A stretch of 64,000 nt of DNA from Natrialba magadii ATCC 43099 (GTDB lineage Archaea > Halobacteriota > Halobacteria > Halobacteriales > Natrialbaceae): positions 3,286,001 to 3,350,000 of the forward strand of contig NC_013922.1 of the NCBI RefSeq assembly GCF_000025625.1, read 5' to 3'. Shown here piece by piece: positions 25,169-38,913 of the stretch. Made by a program: the position numbers and the translations under genes. The notes under the pieces were generated by a model that did not search any database, was not told where the DNA came from, and saw nothing but the letters and a program-made list of their open reading frames with translations. Each line of letters opens with the position of its first letter. Positions within the stretch are counted from its first letter, which is position 1.

Positions 25169-25208
25169 GCTGACTGGGGTGCGTGTACCATGTGCCGGCA
25201 GGATGGGA

Positions 25209-25241
25209 ACAGCCACAGCCACAGCCACAGCCACAGCCACA
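25209..25241. repeat. 6-bp tandem repeat (ACAGCC)n
   Basis: Five and a half head-to-tail copies of ACAGCC between the UbiA-family gene and the CoA-binding gene. A longer upstream reading of the CoA-binding ORF would translate this as Ser-His repeats, which I take as non-coding. Confidence 0.85.
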
Positions 25242-25306
25242 CAAGGACCGAACGAGGAGGCGAGCACGGCGAATCATACAACTGCCTGGAGTCGGTACAG
25301 CAGGGC

Positions 25307-25735
25307 ATGGCATCTCCCGTGGGAATCAGCGAACCGGACGCGCTCCGAGAGATACTCAAGTCCGAGACGATTGCGGTCGTGGGCTGTTCGCGGACGCCGG
25401 GGAAGGCGGCCAACGGCGTGCCGGCGTACCTGCTCGAGCAGGGGTACGACGTGATTCCGGTGAATCCGTTCGCGGACGAGATTTTTGGGCGGGAAGCGTT
25501 CGAGTCACTCGCAGACGTTGCCGAGCAGTCCGATGTTGACATCGTCTGCGTCTTCCGCCCGAGCGAGGAGGTCGCCGACGTTGTCGAGTCGGTACTCGAG
25601 CACGAGGTTGGTGAGGTGATCTGGCTTCAGCAGGGAATCCGCGACGATCAGGCGGCCGAGCGCGCTATGGACGCTGGGTATCGCGTCGTTCAGGACCGGT
25701 GTCTCAAGGTCGATCACCGGCGGCTCGCGACCTGA
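25307..25735 (+). CDS. CoA-binding domain protein (YccU-like)
   Basis: A 142-aa protein; the ATG at 25307 (MASPVGISEPDALREILKSE) is preferred to an upstream start that would include a His-Ser repeat. The single Rossmann-type CoA-binding domain shows TIAVVGCSRTPGKAANGVPA, VIPVNPFADEIFG, the DIVCVFRPSEEV strand and IWLQQGIRDDQAAERAM with the closing VVQDRCLKVDHRRL. Members of this family bind CoA but have no settled function. It follows the lipid gene by 138 bases on the same strand. Confidence 0.88.
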   Translation: MASPVGISEPDALREILKSETIAVVGCSRTPGKAANGVPAYLLEQGYDVIPVNPFADEIFGREAFESLADVAEQSDVDIVCVFRPSEEVADVVESVLEHEVGEVIWLQQGIRDDQAAERAMDAGYRVVQDRCLKVDHRRLAT

Positions 25736-31693: not shown

Positions 31694-33610
31694 ATGAACT
31701 CGATGTCCGGAGACGCTGACACCGGCTACAGCCGTCGCTCGCTCCTCGCTGCCGGCGCGACTGGCCTCTCGATTGCTGCCAGCGGTTGTATCGACCGTGT
31801 CCAGAGCGTCGTCGACCCTGATGCCTCCGAACAGCTCTCACTGTCTATCCTCTCGCTCCCCGCTGCCGACGGTGACAGAGAGACCGCCGAAATCGCACGT
31901 CATCTGGAGTCCAACCTCGAAGCGGTCGGCATCAATGCGACGATCAGCACTCGCTCCGAGTCCGAGTTCCTGGAGGCGATTCTGATCGACCACGACTTCG
32001 ACCTCTACGTGGGCCGCCACCCGGCTGACTTCGACCCGGACTTTCTGTACGAGACGCTGCACTCCACCTACGAGTACGACCGAGGCTGGCAGAACCCGTT
32101 TGGCTTCACCGACCCGCTGTCGATCGATCCGTTGCTCGAGCGCCAGCGCAACGAAACTAGCGCCAATCGCGAGCGGACTGTCACGGCGCTCCTCGAGGCA
32201 ATTGCACAGGTGAAACCGTTCGAACCGATCTGCGTGTCGAACGAGTACCGCGCCGTCCGAACTGATCGGTTCGACGGCTGGGACGAGACCCACCTCGGAA
32301 CCGGACGGGGCTACCTCGGACTCGAACCTGACGCTGCGTCCGACGCCGAACAACTTCGTGCGCTCGTCACGGACCAGCGGCTGACCCAGACCTTCAACCC
32401 GCTCTCCCCGACGACGCGCGAGCAGGGGGTCATCGTCGACCTGCTGTACGACTCGCTTGCCGTTCCAACGTGGTCCGTTCCCGACGAGGCTGAGGCAACG
32501 GACGAGGAGACGCGAGCGGGTGCAGAAGTGATCGACGCGGCAAACGTCTCGATCGAACCCTGGCTCGCGACCGACTGGGAGTGGGACGGTGAGGACCGAA
32601 CCATGACCGTCGATATTCGCGAGGACTGTCTGTTCCACGATCACAGCGAGGACGGCGACGACACTGACGCAGACACCGGCGATAGCAACGGTAACGATAG
32701 CGCCATCCCCCTCACCGCCGAGGACGTCAGGTTCACCTATCGATTCCTCGCAGACACGACGTACGGACGCACCTCGAGTGCTTCCCCCGCACCACGCTAT
32801 AAGGGCCATGCAAGCGCAGTCGACTCGGTCACCGTCGAAGACGACTACCGAGTCACAATTTCGTTCTCGACGGATCGGGCCGTCGCCGAGCGTGCGTTGA
32901 CGGTCCCGATCCTCCCATCCGGCTCTGACTCACCCTGGATCACCCATCTCGAGAACAGCGTCGAGTCCACAGACGACGACTGGTCGCCGACGCAGGGTGA
33001 CTGGAGCATCGTGACGACCGGTCACGCGCCACCGACAGGTAGCGGTCCCTACAAGTATGACTCCCACGACGCGGGAGAGTCCGTCACGCTCACGCGCTTT
33101 GAGGATCACTTTACGCTCCGGGACGACGATCACGACCTGCCAGCGCCTACCGCCGACGAACTTCACTTCGAGGTCGACCCGGGAACGAGTTCGTCGATCG
33201 AACGGGTCGCAAGCGGCGACGCCGATATCACGACATCGGTACTCGATACCTACGCACTCGAGTCGACGGTCGACGACGACGCTGTGTCGTTCGTCGAGTC
33301 GCCGTCGTGGTCGTTCTATCACGTCGGCTTCAACACGCGCAACACGCCGTGTGGCAGCCCCAACTTCCGTCGTGCGGTCTCGCAACTGATCGACAAGCAG
33401 TGGATCGTCGACGAGGTGTTCGCTGCCGAGGACAGTGCACGGCCCGTCGCGACACCGGTTGCCGAAGAGTGGACGCCCGACTCGCTCGCCTGGGACGATG
33501 GCGAGTTGGTGACGACGTTCGTCGGCGAGGACGGGGAACTCGACGTCGACGCCGCGCGAGAACTGTTTGCATCACACTTCGAGTACGACGACGGAGCGCT
33601 GGTCCGGTAG
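31694..33610 (+). CDS. Tat lipoprotein, circularly permuted family-5 solute-binding protein (copy 1)
   Basis: A 638-aa exported lipoprotein: twin-Arg SRRSLLAAGATGLSIAASGC with the lipobox Cys. The order of parts is unusual. Residues about 45-220 resemble the C-terminal part of SBP_bac_5 proteins (LSLSILSLPAADGDRETAEI, then DFDLYVGRHPADFDPDFLYE). The canonical N-terminal part follows: TFNPLSPTTREQGVIVDLLY, WLATDWEWDGEDRTMTVDIR, LTAEDVRFTYRFLAD and GSGPYKYD. It ends at the family's middle: VGFNTRNTPCGSPNFRRAVS and ELDVDAARELFASHF. So the domain is circularly permuted. The start ATG gives the Tat signal directly. It is followed by a PAP2 gene after 11 bases. Confidence 0.88.
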   Translation: MNSMSGDADTGYSRRSLLAAGATGLSIAASGCIDRVQSVVDPDASEQLSLSILSLPAADGDRETAEIARHLESNLEAVGINATISTRSESEFLEAILIDHDFDLYVGRHPADFDPDFLYETLHSTYEYDRGWQNPFGFTDPLSIDPLLERQRNETSANRERTVTALLEAIAQVKPFEPICVSNEYRAVRTDRFDGWDETHLGTGRGYLGLEPDAASDAEQLRALVTDQRLTQTFNPLSPTTREQGVIVDLLYDSLAVPTWSVPDEAEATDEETRAGAEVIDAANVSIEPWLATDWEWDGEDRTMTVDIREDCLFHDHSEDGDDTDADTGDSNGNDSAIPLTAEDVRFTYRFLADTTYGRTSSASPAPRYKGHASAVDSVTVEDDYRVTISFSTDRAVAERALTVPILPSGSDSPWITHLENSVESTDDDWSPTQGDWSIVTTGHAPPTGSGPYKYDSHDAGESVTLTRFEDHFTLRDDDHDLPAPTADELHFEVDPGTSSSIERVASGDADITTSVLDTYALESTVDDDAVSFVESPSWSFYHVGFNTRNTPCGSPNFRRAVSQLIDKQWIVDEVFAAEDSARPVATPVAEEWTPDSLAWDDGELVTTFVGEDGELDVDAARELFASHFEYDDGALVR

Positions 33611-33621
33611 CACGACACGCC

Positions 33622-34503
33622 ATGCTCACACAAGTACTCACACGAGTCGCGCTCGTCGTTGCGCTCGCACTCGTGTTTTCGCTTGCGGTCTTCATCGGCC
33701 GTGACCGACTCGCCTCGCTTCGCACCGAGTGGCGACCGCGGCTCCGCCAGAGCGCTCCCGCGTTTGCGCTCTTGCTCGTGATCCTCGGCCTCAACCGGAT
33801 CATGCGCCAGGACGGATACGACATCTCCCAGGCGTACGGCGTCCACATGACCGAGGTGTTCTACTCGCTCGAGGGTGATTTCGTTCTGCTCTTTCGATCG
33901 ATCGCGACACCGGAAGTGACGACGTTCTTCTCGGTCTCGTACGTCTACGTCTACGCGTTCGTGCTGGTCTTCCCGGTCGTCGCCTACTTCGCGCTCTCGA
34001 ACACCGTCGTCCTCCGCCAGCTGTTGACGGCGTACTCGCTCAACTACGTGATCGGACTCACGTTCTACCTGCTCGTGATCGCCTACGGGCCGCGAAACGT
34101 CATGATCGAGGGAATGGACGCGACGCACCTCTACTACGCGAATCCGGAGTATATCCACCTTACGACAGAGGTCAACCAGAACCGAAACGTCTTCCCATCG
34201 CTGCACACCTCGCTGTCGGCTACGGTCGCCATCTTCGCCTACATGACCCGCGACCAGTATCGAGCGTGGTTCCCCGTCGCAGTCGGCCTCGCAACGAGCG
34301 TCATCATCTCGACGATGTACCTCGGCATCCACTGGGCAATCGACGTGGTCGCCGGCCTCGTCCTCGCCGCCGTCTGTGTCGTCCTCGCGACGCAACTCGT
34401 CGGCCGTTGGTCGCTGTCGGCCCTTCTCAAGCGTGTACAAGCCGCTGGTCAGAGCACGGCTGCGTCTGGGCCAAATCGAGAGCAGGGAGACGATGGCGCG
34501 TAA
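33622..34503 (+). CDS. PAP2/AUR1-type membrane phosphatase or phosphotransferase (copy 1)
   Basis: A 293-aa protein, MLTQVLTRVALVVALALVFS, with about six membrane helices. The PAP2 active-site motifs are present in AUR1/inositol-phosphorylceramide-synthase style: FPSLHTSLSATVAIFAYMT (PSGH-like motif with catalytic His) and STMYLGIHWAIDVVAG (S-x6-H-x3-D). An N-terminal YGPRNVM may correspond to the first motif. The active site should face outside. It is 11 bases behind the permuted binding protein, so co-translated. Substrate unknown; lipid phosphate chemistry is likely from the family. Confidence 0.87.
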   Translation: MLTQVLTRVALVVALALVFSLAVFIGRDRLASLRTEWRPRLRQSAPAFALLLVILGLNRIMRQDGYDISQAYGVHMTEVFYSLEGDFVLLFRSIATPEVTTFFSVSYVYVYAFVLVFPVVAYFALSNTVVLRQLLTAYSLNYVIGLTFYLLVIAYGPRNVMIEGMDATHLYYANPEYIHLTTEVNQNRNVFPSLHTSLSATVAIFAYMTRDQYRAWFPVAVGLATSVIISTMYLGIHWAIDVVAGLVLAAVCVVLATQLVGRWSLSALLKRVQAAGQSTAASGPNREQGDDGA

Positions 34504-34596
34504 GGAGACCCAGAAGTCGACAATTCACCCCCCGAGTGACGATGTTACAGCGCAATACTGTTATATCGCCACGAGCGAACTGTGGCAACGGACCTA

Positions 34597-36522
34597 ATGA
34601 GCGACCCCGCCCCGTCAACGAGCCCCGACAACCACACACGCGACAGCGACGACGCCGCTCGCGGCGGTCCCAGTCGCCGGTCGATGCTCGCCGCGACAGC
34701 CGGTCTCACCGTCTCGATGAGCGGCTGTATCCGCGAAGTACGAAGCATCGTCAACCGCGACGAGGTTGCCCCACTCTCACTGACGATTTCGACGGTTCCC
34801 GCCGACGGCGACCGAGAGAGTATCCAGCTCGCCCGCGCCGTCGGCTCGGCACTCGAGTCCGTTGGCGCCGACATCGCGATCGATATGCTGTCTCAAGAGG
34901 AGTTTCAGCGTGCGATCCTCGTCAATCATGACTTCGATCTCTACGTCGGTCCCCATCCCGGGGACACGACGCCTGACTTCCTTTATGAACTCCTGCACTC
35001 GCGATTCGCGGAGGAAGCCGGCTGGCAGAATCCCTTCGGACTGACGAATCTCGCTATCGACGACCGGCTGGACGAGCAGCGTGTCGCCACAGGCGTAGCC
35101 GCAGACGCAGACGGGAACGGGAACGGGAACGGGAACGGAGACGAAGGCGAAAATGGAGACGAAAACGAGACCAGCGACCGCGAGGACGCGATCACGGCAA
35201 CACTCGAGACGGTTGCGCGCGAGCAGCCGTTCGTCCCGATTTGTCGGCCGACGGAGATCAGACTCGCGCGCTCGGATCGATTCCAGGGCTGGGGAGAGGG
35301 GCATCCAGCGACTCGATTTGGCTATCTTGGTCTCGAGCCACAGTCTGATGGGGCGTCTGCGGAGCTTCGGGCAGTACACACGGACGCACGGCCGTCACAG
35401 AATCTGAATCCGCTGTCGGCGGAGTATCGGGAGCGTGGTCTCTCGACCGAGTTGCTGTACGACTCGCTTGCAGTGGCGCAGTGGCGTGGTGCTGGCGACC
35501 GTGAGTCGGAGACCGACACCGCAACCGATGTCAGTCCCTGGCTCGCGAGTGACTGGGAGTGGAGCGACGACGACACCCTCCTCGTCACCCTCCGGGAGGA
35601 CTGTGAATTCCACGACGGCACGCGACTCACTGCCGAGGACGTCGCCTTTACCTACGAGTTCCTCGCGGACACGACCCGCGGCAGTCGGCGCTTTGCCGCA
35701 CCAGCCCCCCACTACCGCGGCCGCGTCGCCGCCGTCGACGACGTGACCGACCTGAGCGAGACCGAACTCGAGTTCACCGTCGCAGCGAGCCAGCCGGTCG
35801 CCGAGCGCGCACTGGAGGTGCCGATCCTCCCGAAACACATCTGGGACGAGCGCACGGACCAGGCGAGCCTCCGCGGCGTCACGGTTTCGGAGGGGACGAC
35901 CGAAGCGCTCGTCACCGACAACGTGCCCGCAATCGGCAGCGGCCCCTATCAGTTCGACGAGCGGACCGACCGTGATCACCTTACGCTCGCACGCTTTGAC
36001 GCACACTTTACGCGCCGCGACGGCGTCGATCTGCCGGAACCGACAAGCGAGCACCTGCGCATCCAGATCGACCCGCGGAGCACGTCCGCGATCGAACTCG
36101 TCGAAAGCGACAGTGCCGACGTGACGTCTTCGCCACTCGAGTCCTACGTCGTCGATGACGTGTTCGAAGACGACGAGGCAATTTCGGAAACGACGGTACT
36201 CGAGTCACCATCCTGGTCGTTCTACCATATCGGGTTCAACACGCGTCGAGCGCCGCTTTCCAATCCGCGGTTTCGCAGGGTCGTTGCCCGACTCCTCGAC
36301 AAGGAACAGTTGGTCGAGGAGGTGTTCCACGGCCATGCACAGCCGATCGCAACGCCGGTGGTCGAGGAGTGGGTTCCCGACTCGCTCGCCTGGAACGGCA
36401 GCGATCCGGAGACGCCGTTTTTCGGGACTGACGGGGAGCTCGATGTCGCGGCTGCGAGGGATGCGTTCGAAGATGCGGGACTGCGCTACGACGATGACGG
36501 AAGACTCCGGGTGAGACACTGA
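34597..36522 (+). CDS. Tat lipoprotein, circularly permuted family-5 solute-binding protein (copy 2)
   Basis: A 641-aa paralogue of the protein at 31694. Signal: SRRSMLAATAGLTVSMSGC with lipobox Cys. Permuted order again: PLSLTISTVPADGDRESIQL and DFDLYVGPHPGDTTPDFLYE first, then QNLNPLSAEYRERGLSTELL, WLASDWEWSDDDTLLVTLRE, DGTRLTAEDVAFTYEFLADT, ILPKHIWDE, GSGPYQFDE, and finally IGFNTRRAPLSNPRFRRVVA and AARDAFEDAGLRYDDDGRLR, which is normally followed by the part found here at the N-terminus. A GNGNGNGNGDE insert from a DNA repeat lies near residue 175. ATG at 34597 is preferred over GTG at 34582. The stop overlaps the next ATG by one base. Confidence 0.88.
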   Translation: MSDPAPSTSPDNHTRDSDDAARGGPSRRSMLAATAGLTVSMSGCIREVRSIVNRDEVAPLSLTISTVPADGDRESIQLARAVGSALESVGADIAIDMLSQEEFQRAILVNHDFDLYVGPHPGDTTPDFLYELLHSRFAEEAGWQNPFGLTNLAIDDRLDEQRVATGVAADADGNGNGNGNGDEGENGDENETSDREDAITATLETVAREQPFVPICRPTEIRLARSDRFQGWGEGHPATRFGYLGLEPQSDGASAELRAVHTDARPSQNLNPLSAEYRERGLSTELLYDSLAVAQWRGAGDRESETDTATDVSPWLASDWEWSDDDTLLVTLREDCEFHDGTRLTAEDVAFTYEFLADTTRGSRRFAAPAPHYRGRVAAVDDVTDLSETELEFTVAASQPVAERALEVPILPKHIWDERTDQASLRGVTVSEGTTEALVTDNVPAIGSGPYQFDERTDRDHLTLARFDAHFTRRDGVDLPEPTSEHLRIQIDPRSTSAIELVESDSADVTSSPLESYVVDDVFEDDEAISETTVLESPSWSFYHIGFNTRRAPLSNPRFRRVVARLLDKEQLVEEVFHGHAQPIATPVVEEWVPDSLAWNGSDPETPFFGTDGELDVAAARDAFEDAGLRYDDDGRLRVRH

Positions 36523-37574
36523 TGCTGACGCAAGTACTCCTCCAGCTGACCGTCGTCGTCACGCTCCTGGTACTCGTCTCGATCGGTCTCTTCGTCGGTC
36601 GCTACCGGCTTCGGGACACCCGAACCGAGTGGCGAGCCCGTGTTCGAGCGGCGGCTCCCGTCACGGCGTTACTCGCCGCAGTCTTGCTCTTCAACAGCGT
36701 CGCCAGACAGTACGGTCCAGATGTCTCCTGGATGATTCACTGGAATCTCACGTGGCCGATCTACGACGTGGAAGGCGAGTTCATCCTCTGGCTGCAGTCG
36801 TTCGAAGCGCCGGCGATTACGGCGTACTTCTCGTTCATCTACATCTACGGCTACGTCTTTCTGCTGGTCTTCCCGGTCATCGCCTACTTCGCGCTCTCGA
36901 ATACGCGTCCGCTGCGCGAACTCCTGACGGCGTACACGCTGAACTACGTGCTGGGGCTTGGAATCTACGTCTTCATCGTCGCCTACGGGCCGCGAAACAT
37001 GATGCCGGAACTGGTGGACGCGCTGCTGTACGATACGTATCCACAGTACCAGCACCTCACACGACAGGTCAACCGGAACACGAACGTCTTCCCATCGCTG
37101 CACACCTCGCTCGCGGCAACCGTGACGTTCCTCGCCTTCCGGACCCGGGCGATCTATCCGAAGTGGTTCCTCCTCGCGACGGGTCTTGGCGTCTCGGTCG
37201 CGATTTCGACGATGTATCTCGGGATCCACTGGGTGATCGACGTGGTGGCTGGAATCGTCCTCGCCTACATCTGTGTCGCGCTCGCCGGTGTCCTCGTCGG
37301 TCGCTGGTCGCTCACAGACTGGATCGCAACGCTTCAGGGTTCGAGCACGGGTGCCGATGGTCGGTCTCGACCAGACACAGGCGTAGCTTCGAGTTCGGAC
37401 GCGGGTGCGGTCAGCGCGGATTCGAGCCCCAGCGAAGAAGCGTCCGAACCAGCCCGTTCCGAATCGGGATCGGGAACGAGGTCGGATCCTGACGCTGAAC
37501 CGGACTCAGATCCAGACCCAGACACAGAGCCAGATCCAGACTCAGATCCGGACCCATCCGGACCTCGCGCCTGA
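36522..37574 (+). CDS. PAP2/AUR1-type membrane phosphatase or phosphotransferase (copy 2)
   Basis: A 350-aa paralogue of 33622 (MLTQVLLQLTVVVTLLVLVS). It has the same motifs FPSLHTSLAATVTFLAFRT and STMYLGIHWVIDVVAG and the same YGPRNMM. It carries an extra cytoplasmic tail of about 80 residues, Ser/Glu-rich then Asp-Pro repeats (DSDPDPDTEPDPDSDPDP) from a 6-bp DNA repeat. The ATG shares a base with the stop of the binding protein (TGATG), direct translational coupling. The two modules 31694-34503 and 34597-37574 are a tandem duplication that has diverged considerably. Confidence 0.87.
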   Translation: MLTQVLLQLTVVVTLLVLVSIGLFVGRYRLRDTRTEWRARVRAAAPVTALLAAVLLFNSVARQYGPDVSWMIHWNLTWPIYDVEGEFILWLQSFEAPAITAYFSFIYIYGYVFLLVFPVIAYFALSNTRPLRELLTAYTLNYVLGLGIYVFIVAYGPRNMMPELVDALLYDTYPQYQHLTRQVNRNTNVFPSLHTSLAATVTFLAFRTRAIYPKWFLLATGLGVSVAISTMYLGIHWVIDVVAGIVLAYICVALAGVLVGRWSLTDWIATLQGSSTGADGRSRPDTGVASSSDAGAVSADSSPSEEASEPARSESGSGTRSDPDAEPDSDPDPDTEPDPDSDPDPSGPRA

Positions 37575-38310: not shown

Positions 38311-38913
38311 ATGACCGGTCAGATTCACGCGATCCATATCGCTCCCGAACAGGGTGCACCGCCAGAACGGGTCGAACGCGTCGAGGCCGTCGCCGGCCGT
38401 GGACTCGAGGGCGACCGCTACTACACCGCCGAGGGAACGTTCGAGGACCGCGAGGGCAGCGACCTCACACTCATCGAACGCGAGACGCTCGCCGCCGTCG
38501 AACGCGACTACGATATCGATCTCGAACCCGGCGTCCATCGGCGCAACGTCACGACGACCGATATTGCGCTGAACCACCTCGTCGGCAGTCGCTTTCGCGT
38601 CGGTGACGCCGTCTGTGAGGGGATCGAACTCTGCGAGCCGTGTTCGTACCTCGAGCGCCACCTCGAACGCGAGGGGGTCCGCGACGCGCTGGTCCACCGC
38701 GGCGGCCTGCGCGCACGGATACTCGAGGGCGCGACACTCGAGATGGGTGATCGTGTCGCCGTTGTTGTCGATACTGATACTGATACTGATACTGATACTG
38801 ATACCGAGACCGATACTGATACTGATACCGAGACCAGCGAGGCCAGTCAAGACAGCGAGACAGACACTGACAACGACACGAACCGAACACAGACGGCACG
38901 CTCGCACTGCTGA
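38311..38913 (+). CDS. MOSC-domain protein
   Basis: A 200-aa protein with a single MOSC domain: residues 1-150 include GRGLEGDRYYTAEGTFEDRE, PGVHRRNVTTTDIALNHLVG, and CEPCSYLERHL with the conserved Cys that binds Moco sulfur in this family. The last 50 residues are a DTDTDTDTETDTDTDTE repeat, encoded by GATACT-type hexamers, plus an Asn/Thr-rich end. MOSC proteins deliver or use sulfur for metal-sulfur cofactors. The substrate is not known. Likely cytoplasmic. Confidence 0.9.
   Translation: MTGQIHAIHIAPEQGAPPERVERVEAVAGRGLEGDRYYTAEGTFEDREGSDLTLIERETLAAVERDYDIDLEPGVHRRNVTTTDIALNHLVGSRFRVGDAVCEGIELCEPCSYLERHLEREGVRDALVHRGGLRARILEGATLEMGDRVAVVVDTDTDTDTDTDTETDTDTDTETSEASQDSETDTDNDTNRTQTARSHC

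Follow-up and report, generated by a model that had tools for sequence, protein, structure and literature searches.

The window, the 64,000 nucleotides of Natrialba magadii DNA that were analysed, contains two genes for solute-binding lipoproteins (SBPs) of the SBP_bac_5 family, each followed by a gene for a PAP2-type membrane protein. The two SBP-PAP2 units lie in tandem (31694..37574, + strand) as direct repeats about 2.9 kb apart (spacing 2897-2915). The first lipoprotein (P0001, 638 amino acids) is encoded at 31694..33610 (+) and the second (P0002, 641 amino acids) at 34597..36522 (+). In both, the Tat signal and lipobox are followed by the segment that is C-terminal in canonical proteins (block B), and only then by the canonical N-terminal segment (block A). 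In protein 1 the Tat signal peptide and lipobox (Cys32) occupy 31694..31789 (+), with the translation SRRSLLAAGATGLSIAASGC; block B (residues 46-218; 31829..32347, +) aligns to positions 366-496 of an HMM of canonical receptors, and block A (residues 219-638; 32348..33607, +) to positions 76-347 of that HMM and 2-275 of the Pfam profile. In protein 2, whose Tat signal and lipobox translate as SRRSMLAATAGLTVSMSGC, block B (residues 58-254; 34768..35358, +) aligns to canonical HMM positions 357-460, with the un-permuted match reaching Pfam position 362, and block A (residues 255-641; 35359..36519, +) to canonical HMM 74-361 and Pfam 2-284. Haloarchaeal SBP_bac_5 proteins are usually exported by way of a Tat lipobox, and the translations of the window pair carry such signals (SRRSLL...SGC and SRRSML...SGC).

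The PAP2_3/PAP2 membrane phosphatase-family protein after the first lipoprotein is encoded at 33622..34503 (+), its start being set by comparison with locus L017, and scores 63.0 bits against PF14378 and 48.5 bits against PF01569; its counterpart at 36522..37574 (+), whose start codon overlaps the stop codon of the second lipoprotein gene, scores 66.5 and 46.4 bits. Both exceed the curated cut-offs of the two families, and the phosphatase role is putative. Judged by eye, they retain FPSLHT and YLGIHWxxDV (YLGIHWVIDV in the protein at 36522..37574), the PSxH and HxxxD-type motifs shared with PAP2_3/PAP2 enzymes. Elsewhere in the window, short DNA repeats give rise to low-complexity ORF tails (38311-38913 and 25190-25735): an Asp-Thr run ends a MOSC-domain protein, and another ORF begins with a His-Ser run.

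SBP_bac_5 (PF00496) is the sole Pfam family above cut-off in the two lipoproteins, with 155.5 and 157.5 bits against a gathering score of 32.4, and in each its match is broken into two stretches. The better one (residues 287-627 and 312-635) covers only the initial three quarters of the profile, positions 2-275 and 2-284 of 368, and in the whole-genome search the first gene had profile positions 290-362 ahead of 2-275. When the proteins were un-permuted, each gave one collinear stretch (profile 2-362) and the score rose, from 155.5 to 167.8 and from 157.5 to 170.6 bits; the same treatment of a paralogue from the host also yielded one collinear stretch and raised its score from 209.6 to 221.4 bits. 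An earlier note had proposed that the two proteins have a permuted block order, visible as two swapped blocks on the SBP_bac_5 HMM. The swapped stretches and the effect of un-permuting bear this out, and the single collinear match that the note named as refuting it is ruled out. Both ORFs are present as that note describes them; the motifs it quotes come mostly from the second protein (34597-36522). Taken alone, block B of the window proteins resembles that of canonical proteins weakly (3.6 and 19.1 bits). In a sequence search of the PDB, 4wed_A was matched at its residues 362-478 by residues 46-166 of protein 1, and the downstream portion of the protein matched the N-terminal half of other family-5 structures.

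The order was also examined by a rotation scan, in which proteins were rotated in 12-residue steps against an HMM built from nine canonical receptors. Rotation gained 12-102 bits in 44 of 53 permuted proteins, and at most 2.5 bits in 32 canonical proteins, including E. coli DppA, OppA, GsiB and NikA. Among the nine permuted proteins that gained less than 10 bits, three of which are L105-L107, block B precedes block A in eight by direct alignment. The proteins with long N-terminal read-through, L105-L107 and L081, showed almost no gain, because their surplus N-terminus lands inside the rotated sequence; L105-L107 have the swapped order in direct alignment despite this low gain. One further candidate, L136, proved canonical by the scan and was set aside.

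The position of the cut is shared throughout the main clade to which the window proteins belong; block A ends at about HMM position 347-363 and block B starts at about 343-375. This corresponds approximately to residues 382/383 of the E. coli OppA precursor and 369/370 of the DppA precursor, after the helix ‘AkkLLaeAGY’, a site which we take to be inside domain III (lobe II) of OppA. The new C-terminus follows the helix and turn ‘AkkLLeeAGY..DG’, near OppA precursor residue 382. A related protein from Nitratireductor aligns to B. subtilis AppA (1xoc) in two significant, swapped segments, residues 202-529 to 22-345 and 44-168 to 375-495. No permuted member of the family was found in the PDB, and no match spanning the junction was seen among the chains listed for single-protein and profile queries. 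Predicted models of the two window proteins were poor (pLDDT 39.6 and 51.3, from alignments of 9 and 11 sequences); for the better one the matches listed by Foldseek were binding proteins of the DppA/OppA/NikA type, with a TM-score of only about 0.2, and the two-lobed fold is thus assigned by homology only. It is very probable, on the sequence comparisons, that the window proteins are natural circular permutants of a family-5 (DppA/OppA-type) binding protein, in a family where permutation has recurred; this estimate covers permutation and recurrence jointly.

The arrangement is not restricted to this locus. Of the 12 SBP_bac_5 proteins that the host genome encodes above the family cut-off, five are permuted; those outside the window pair lie at L022:6687-8549, L023:5485-7260 and L024:6476-8167. 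Relatives of the window type, here called PAP2-type, were found in 172 of 293 genomes and 61 of 87 genera in a sample of the order, mostly full length and collinear with the window proteins, and in 65 of 117 genomes of a smaller sample. The earlier note had asked about the spread in other haloarchaea and had excluded an assembly artefact from the order being shared by the two paralogues; these counts answer the former and strengthen the latter, since the same order in so many genomes is attributable neither to chance nor to assembly. Several of the relatives sit near contig starts. Proteins of the same order are also encoded on plasmids of Nitratireductor, Roseomonas, Maritalea, Microvirga, Neorhizobium and Ketogulonicigenium, the bacterial spread having been sampled from plasmids only; where annotated, they are called ‘ABC transporter substrate-binding protein’. 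No relatives were found on viral contigs. By sequence relationship, this main clade (event I) is large and old, and common to haloarchaea and alphaproteobacteria.

On phylogenetic grounds at least four independent permutation events are shown, all within one stretch of lobe II. The tree built from re-ordered sequences requires four order changes, and in AU tests on the denser sampling a single clade of all permuted proteins was rejected (p = 8e-40), as were clades joining events I and IV (p = 6e-6) and events I and II (p = 2e-61), the trees being the product of quick searches. One origin of all permuted proteins was rejected even in the first, sparser tree (p = 0.008). For events II and III the case is made by plain sequence identity and not by deep branches.

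Event III took place outside the haloarchaea, in another family of the phylum, in the genus coded g89. Here a permuted receptor adjoins dppBCDF in three genomes (G208, G216 and G255), and the receptor is canonical in four congeneric ones (G192, G204, G281 and G282); in swapped order the two forms are 84-86% identical in block A and 85-89% in block B at the protein level, and 77-81% identical as DNA. The permuted protein of G216 ends ‘...LAKEYLKKAGYSE’, where its canonical counterparts read ‘...KEAGYSEDNKLKLELWW’. Permuted and canonical genes still resemble each other in the signal peptide and in the sequence immediately 5' of the start codon; the permuted gene is inverted relative to dppB and has different flanking genes. 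In the loci compared (L118, L119 and L179 permuted, L180 and L181 canonical) the canonical gene is located elsewhere; the g89 pair is a candidate for step-by-step tracing of one permutation.

Event II was found in four genomes of genus g2, which belongs to the family of the host. The cut in this permuted receptor (P0006) precedes the helix, unlike that of the main clade, and its nearest relatives, L145-L147, are canonical, with 38-45% identity in block A and 31-34% in block B. The downstream importer genes of L176 and L173 match; the event II loci (L132:4858-6504 and L176-L178) carry the same importer genes as their canonical relatives. Event IV is represented by P0007 of G275 (L117:5730-7472), which is permuted and falls outside the clade containing event III. 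P0007 carries a C-terminal PGF-CTERM sorting signal, which would place its anchor after lobe II, at the opposite end of the chain.

Errors of assembly or annotation, or the decay of fused tandem genes, could be entertained as the source of the permuted genes because tandem SBP genes do occur and assemblies may collapse there, but the explanation is refuted for the main clade and has next to no probability, given intact ORFs and signal peptides across the haloarchaeal sample, one shared cut, conserved operon positions, and the presence of event III in G216, a single-contig genome. A chimeric origin, in which block B came from another SBP gene and was fused before a C-terminally truncated SBP, is very unlikely. 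Haloarchaeal genomes do contain numerous paralogous SBPs, in part arranged in tandem (L027), and in the ancient main clade a single parent gene for the two blocks is only presumed; against this, both blocks of event III show their high identity to one single canonical protein, and the two blocks of event II have common nearest canonical relatives in L145-L147. Permutation of a single receptor gene is the reading we retain, and it seems likely that the permutations arose when a gene was duplicated in tandem, fused in frame and trimmed by deletion. In event III, the retained 5' region and signal peptide speak for this route rather than for the capture of a new signal.

The genes around the permuted receptors fall into two types. 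In the Dpp-type, importer genes adjoin the receptor: the host proteins at L023 and L024 each head a complete dppBCDF operon, importer genes adjoin 11 of 14 inspected haloarchaeal Dpp-type copies, and they also adjoin the copies on alphaproteobacterial plasmids. Genes for an M28 peptidase, an IclR regulator and hydantoinase B/oxoprolinase recur at the plasmid loci, and M28 peptidase genes lie beside L024 too; such genes recur in Dpp-type operons (L090-L094, L024:8389-11206). The M28 peptidase, with the plasmid-borne hydantoinase B/oxoprolinase genes, hints at peptide-like or cyclic-imide substrates. Since importer genes stand beside permuted receptors in the Dpp-type members of event I and in events II, III and IV, as they do beside canonical ones, these receptors are probably still functional, and delivery to the importer has probably survived the change of order. 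Furthermore, the earlier suggestion that a permutation could alter how the protein docks with a partner has to be set against the many permuted members that keep DppBCDF, so that permutation alone implies no new docking partner.

In the PAP2-type, a PAP2_3/PAP2 gene lies directly downstream of the receptor gene in 31 of 38 inspected copies (the window pair and 29 of 36 others), the remaining seven having no PAP2 neighbour. The two reading frames often touch or overlap, and the pairing is kept across many genera. No ABC importer genes lie beside the window pair, which belongs to a subfamily that is orphan in this sense. The fifth permuted SBP of the host, at the start of contig C1, also has a PAP2 neighbour (L022:2161-9626); genes resembling cetZ, dihydropteroate synthase and mptE by eye lie near it. 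From gene order we infer a partnership between the SBP and the PAP2 protein. We know of no fixed pairing of PAP2 with a solute-binding lipoprotein, and no papers on one were found in the open-licence literature.

In the proposed mechanism, the former C-terminal block follows the lipobox, and the former termini, both of which are in lobe I in canonical proteins, would be joined by a short linker. Each permuted chain would fold as an ordinary two-lobed receptor and bind an extracellular solute while tethered via lobe II; the shift of the anchor that had been supposed is upheld on sequence, where the lipobox is now followed by a lobe II strand in place of one from lobe I. The ancestral role of the clade may have been that of receptor for a Dpp-type ABC importer. 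As a tentative best guess, the window pair could be part of a haloarchaeal side branch in which the importer was lost and the receptor came to act together with the PAP2 enzyme encoded next to it, holding or delivering what a phosphatase or phosphotransferase reaction consumes or produces. More speculative is an extracytoplasmic, importer-free system for handling substrates, conserved among haloarchaea, in which the lobe-II-tethered receptor would present ligand to the PAP2 enzyme or take it over from the enzyme, with the lobe II joint of family-5 receptors acting as a recurrent hot spot that tolerates or favours permutation.

Two other roles for the window pair may be considered. Orphan binding proteins of haloarchaea can serve chemoreceptors, as BasB and CosB of Halobacterium do, and the permuted orphans might likewise be the ligand-binding parts of a sensory pathway; this is improbable, as no transducer or kinase gene was among the called neighbours in the window and PAP2 is the steady neighbour. 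Alternatively, they could be ordinary receptors for an ABC importer encoded at a distance, the PAP2 gene being incidental or co-regulated. Sister branches of the clade head importer operons and the host genome has several Dpp-type importers, which would suit such an arrangement; the persistence of the SBP-PAP2 pairing across genera, with frames so often in contact, and the lack of importer genes adjoining the pair make it rather unlikely.

Compared with canonical SBP_bac_5 proteins (cluster C: DppA, OppA, NikA, GsiB and AppA, 1xoc), the permuted proteins are homologous over both blocks and have an export signal, and their Dpp-type members are likewise found in dppBCDF operons; they differ in the swapped blocks and the new termini in lobe II, and the window pair differs further in its coupling to PAP2 without importer genes. 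Natural circular permutations have been reviewed (PMC2096629), with DNA methyltransferases and plant proteinase inhibitors (PMC2259423) among the examples. The probable route is the same there, namely tandem duplication, fusion and a new start and stop, whereas here the protein is the receptor of an ABC importer, at least four events fall in one stretch, and one of them lies within a single genus, where the 5' region and the signal peptide have stayed similar. Binding proteins permuted by engineering serve as biosensors (PMC6335823); they show that the same two-lobed fold class tolerates new termini, but they are laboratory constructs and not natural genes. The statement that no permuted family-5 binding protein had been described agrees with our search of open-licence papers, which returned engineered permutants and no natural permutation of the SBP_bac_5 family.

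Profile annotation labels all of these proteins ‘ABC transporter substrate-binding protein’, and so the permutation is hidden. As a rule, a natural circular permutation is deduced from a comparison of distant proteins. In the present case a single receptor family, large and well studied, has undergone it at least four times independently in one stretch, which offers an exceptionally clear example from nature of a protein cut and re-joined during evolution. Because event III is recent (about 79% DNA identity, same genus), its molecular steps should be reconstructable and testable. Permuted receptors that keep the same importer offer a natural test of how anchor position and lobe connectivity bear on delivery, and the SBP-PAP2 pair, from its gene order, points to what may be an undescribed partnership.
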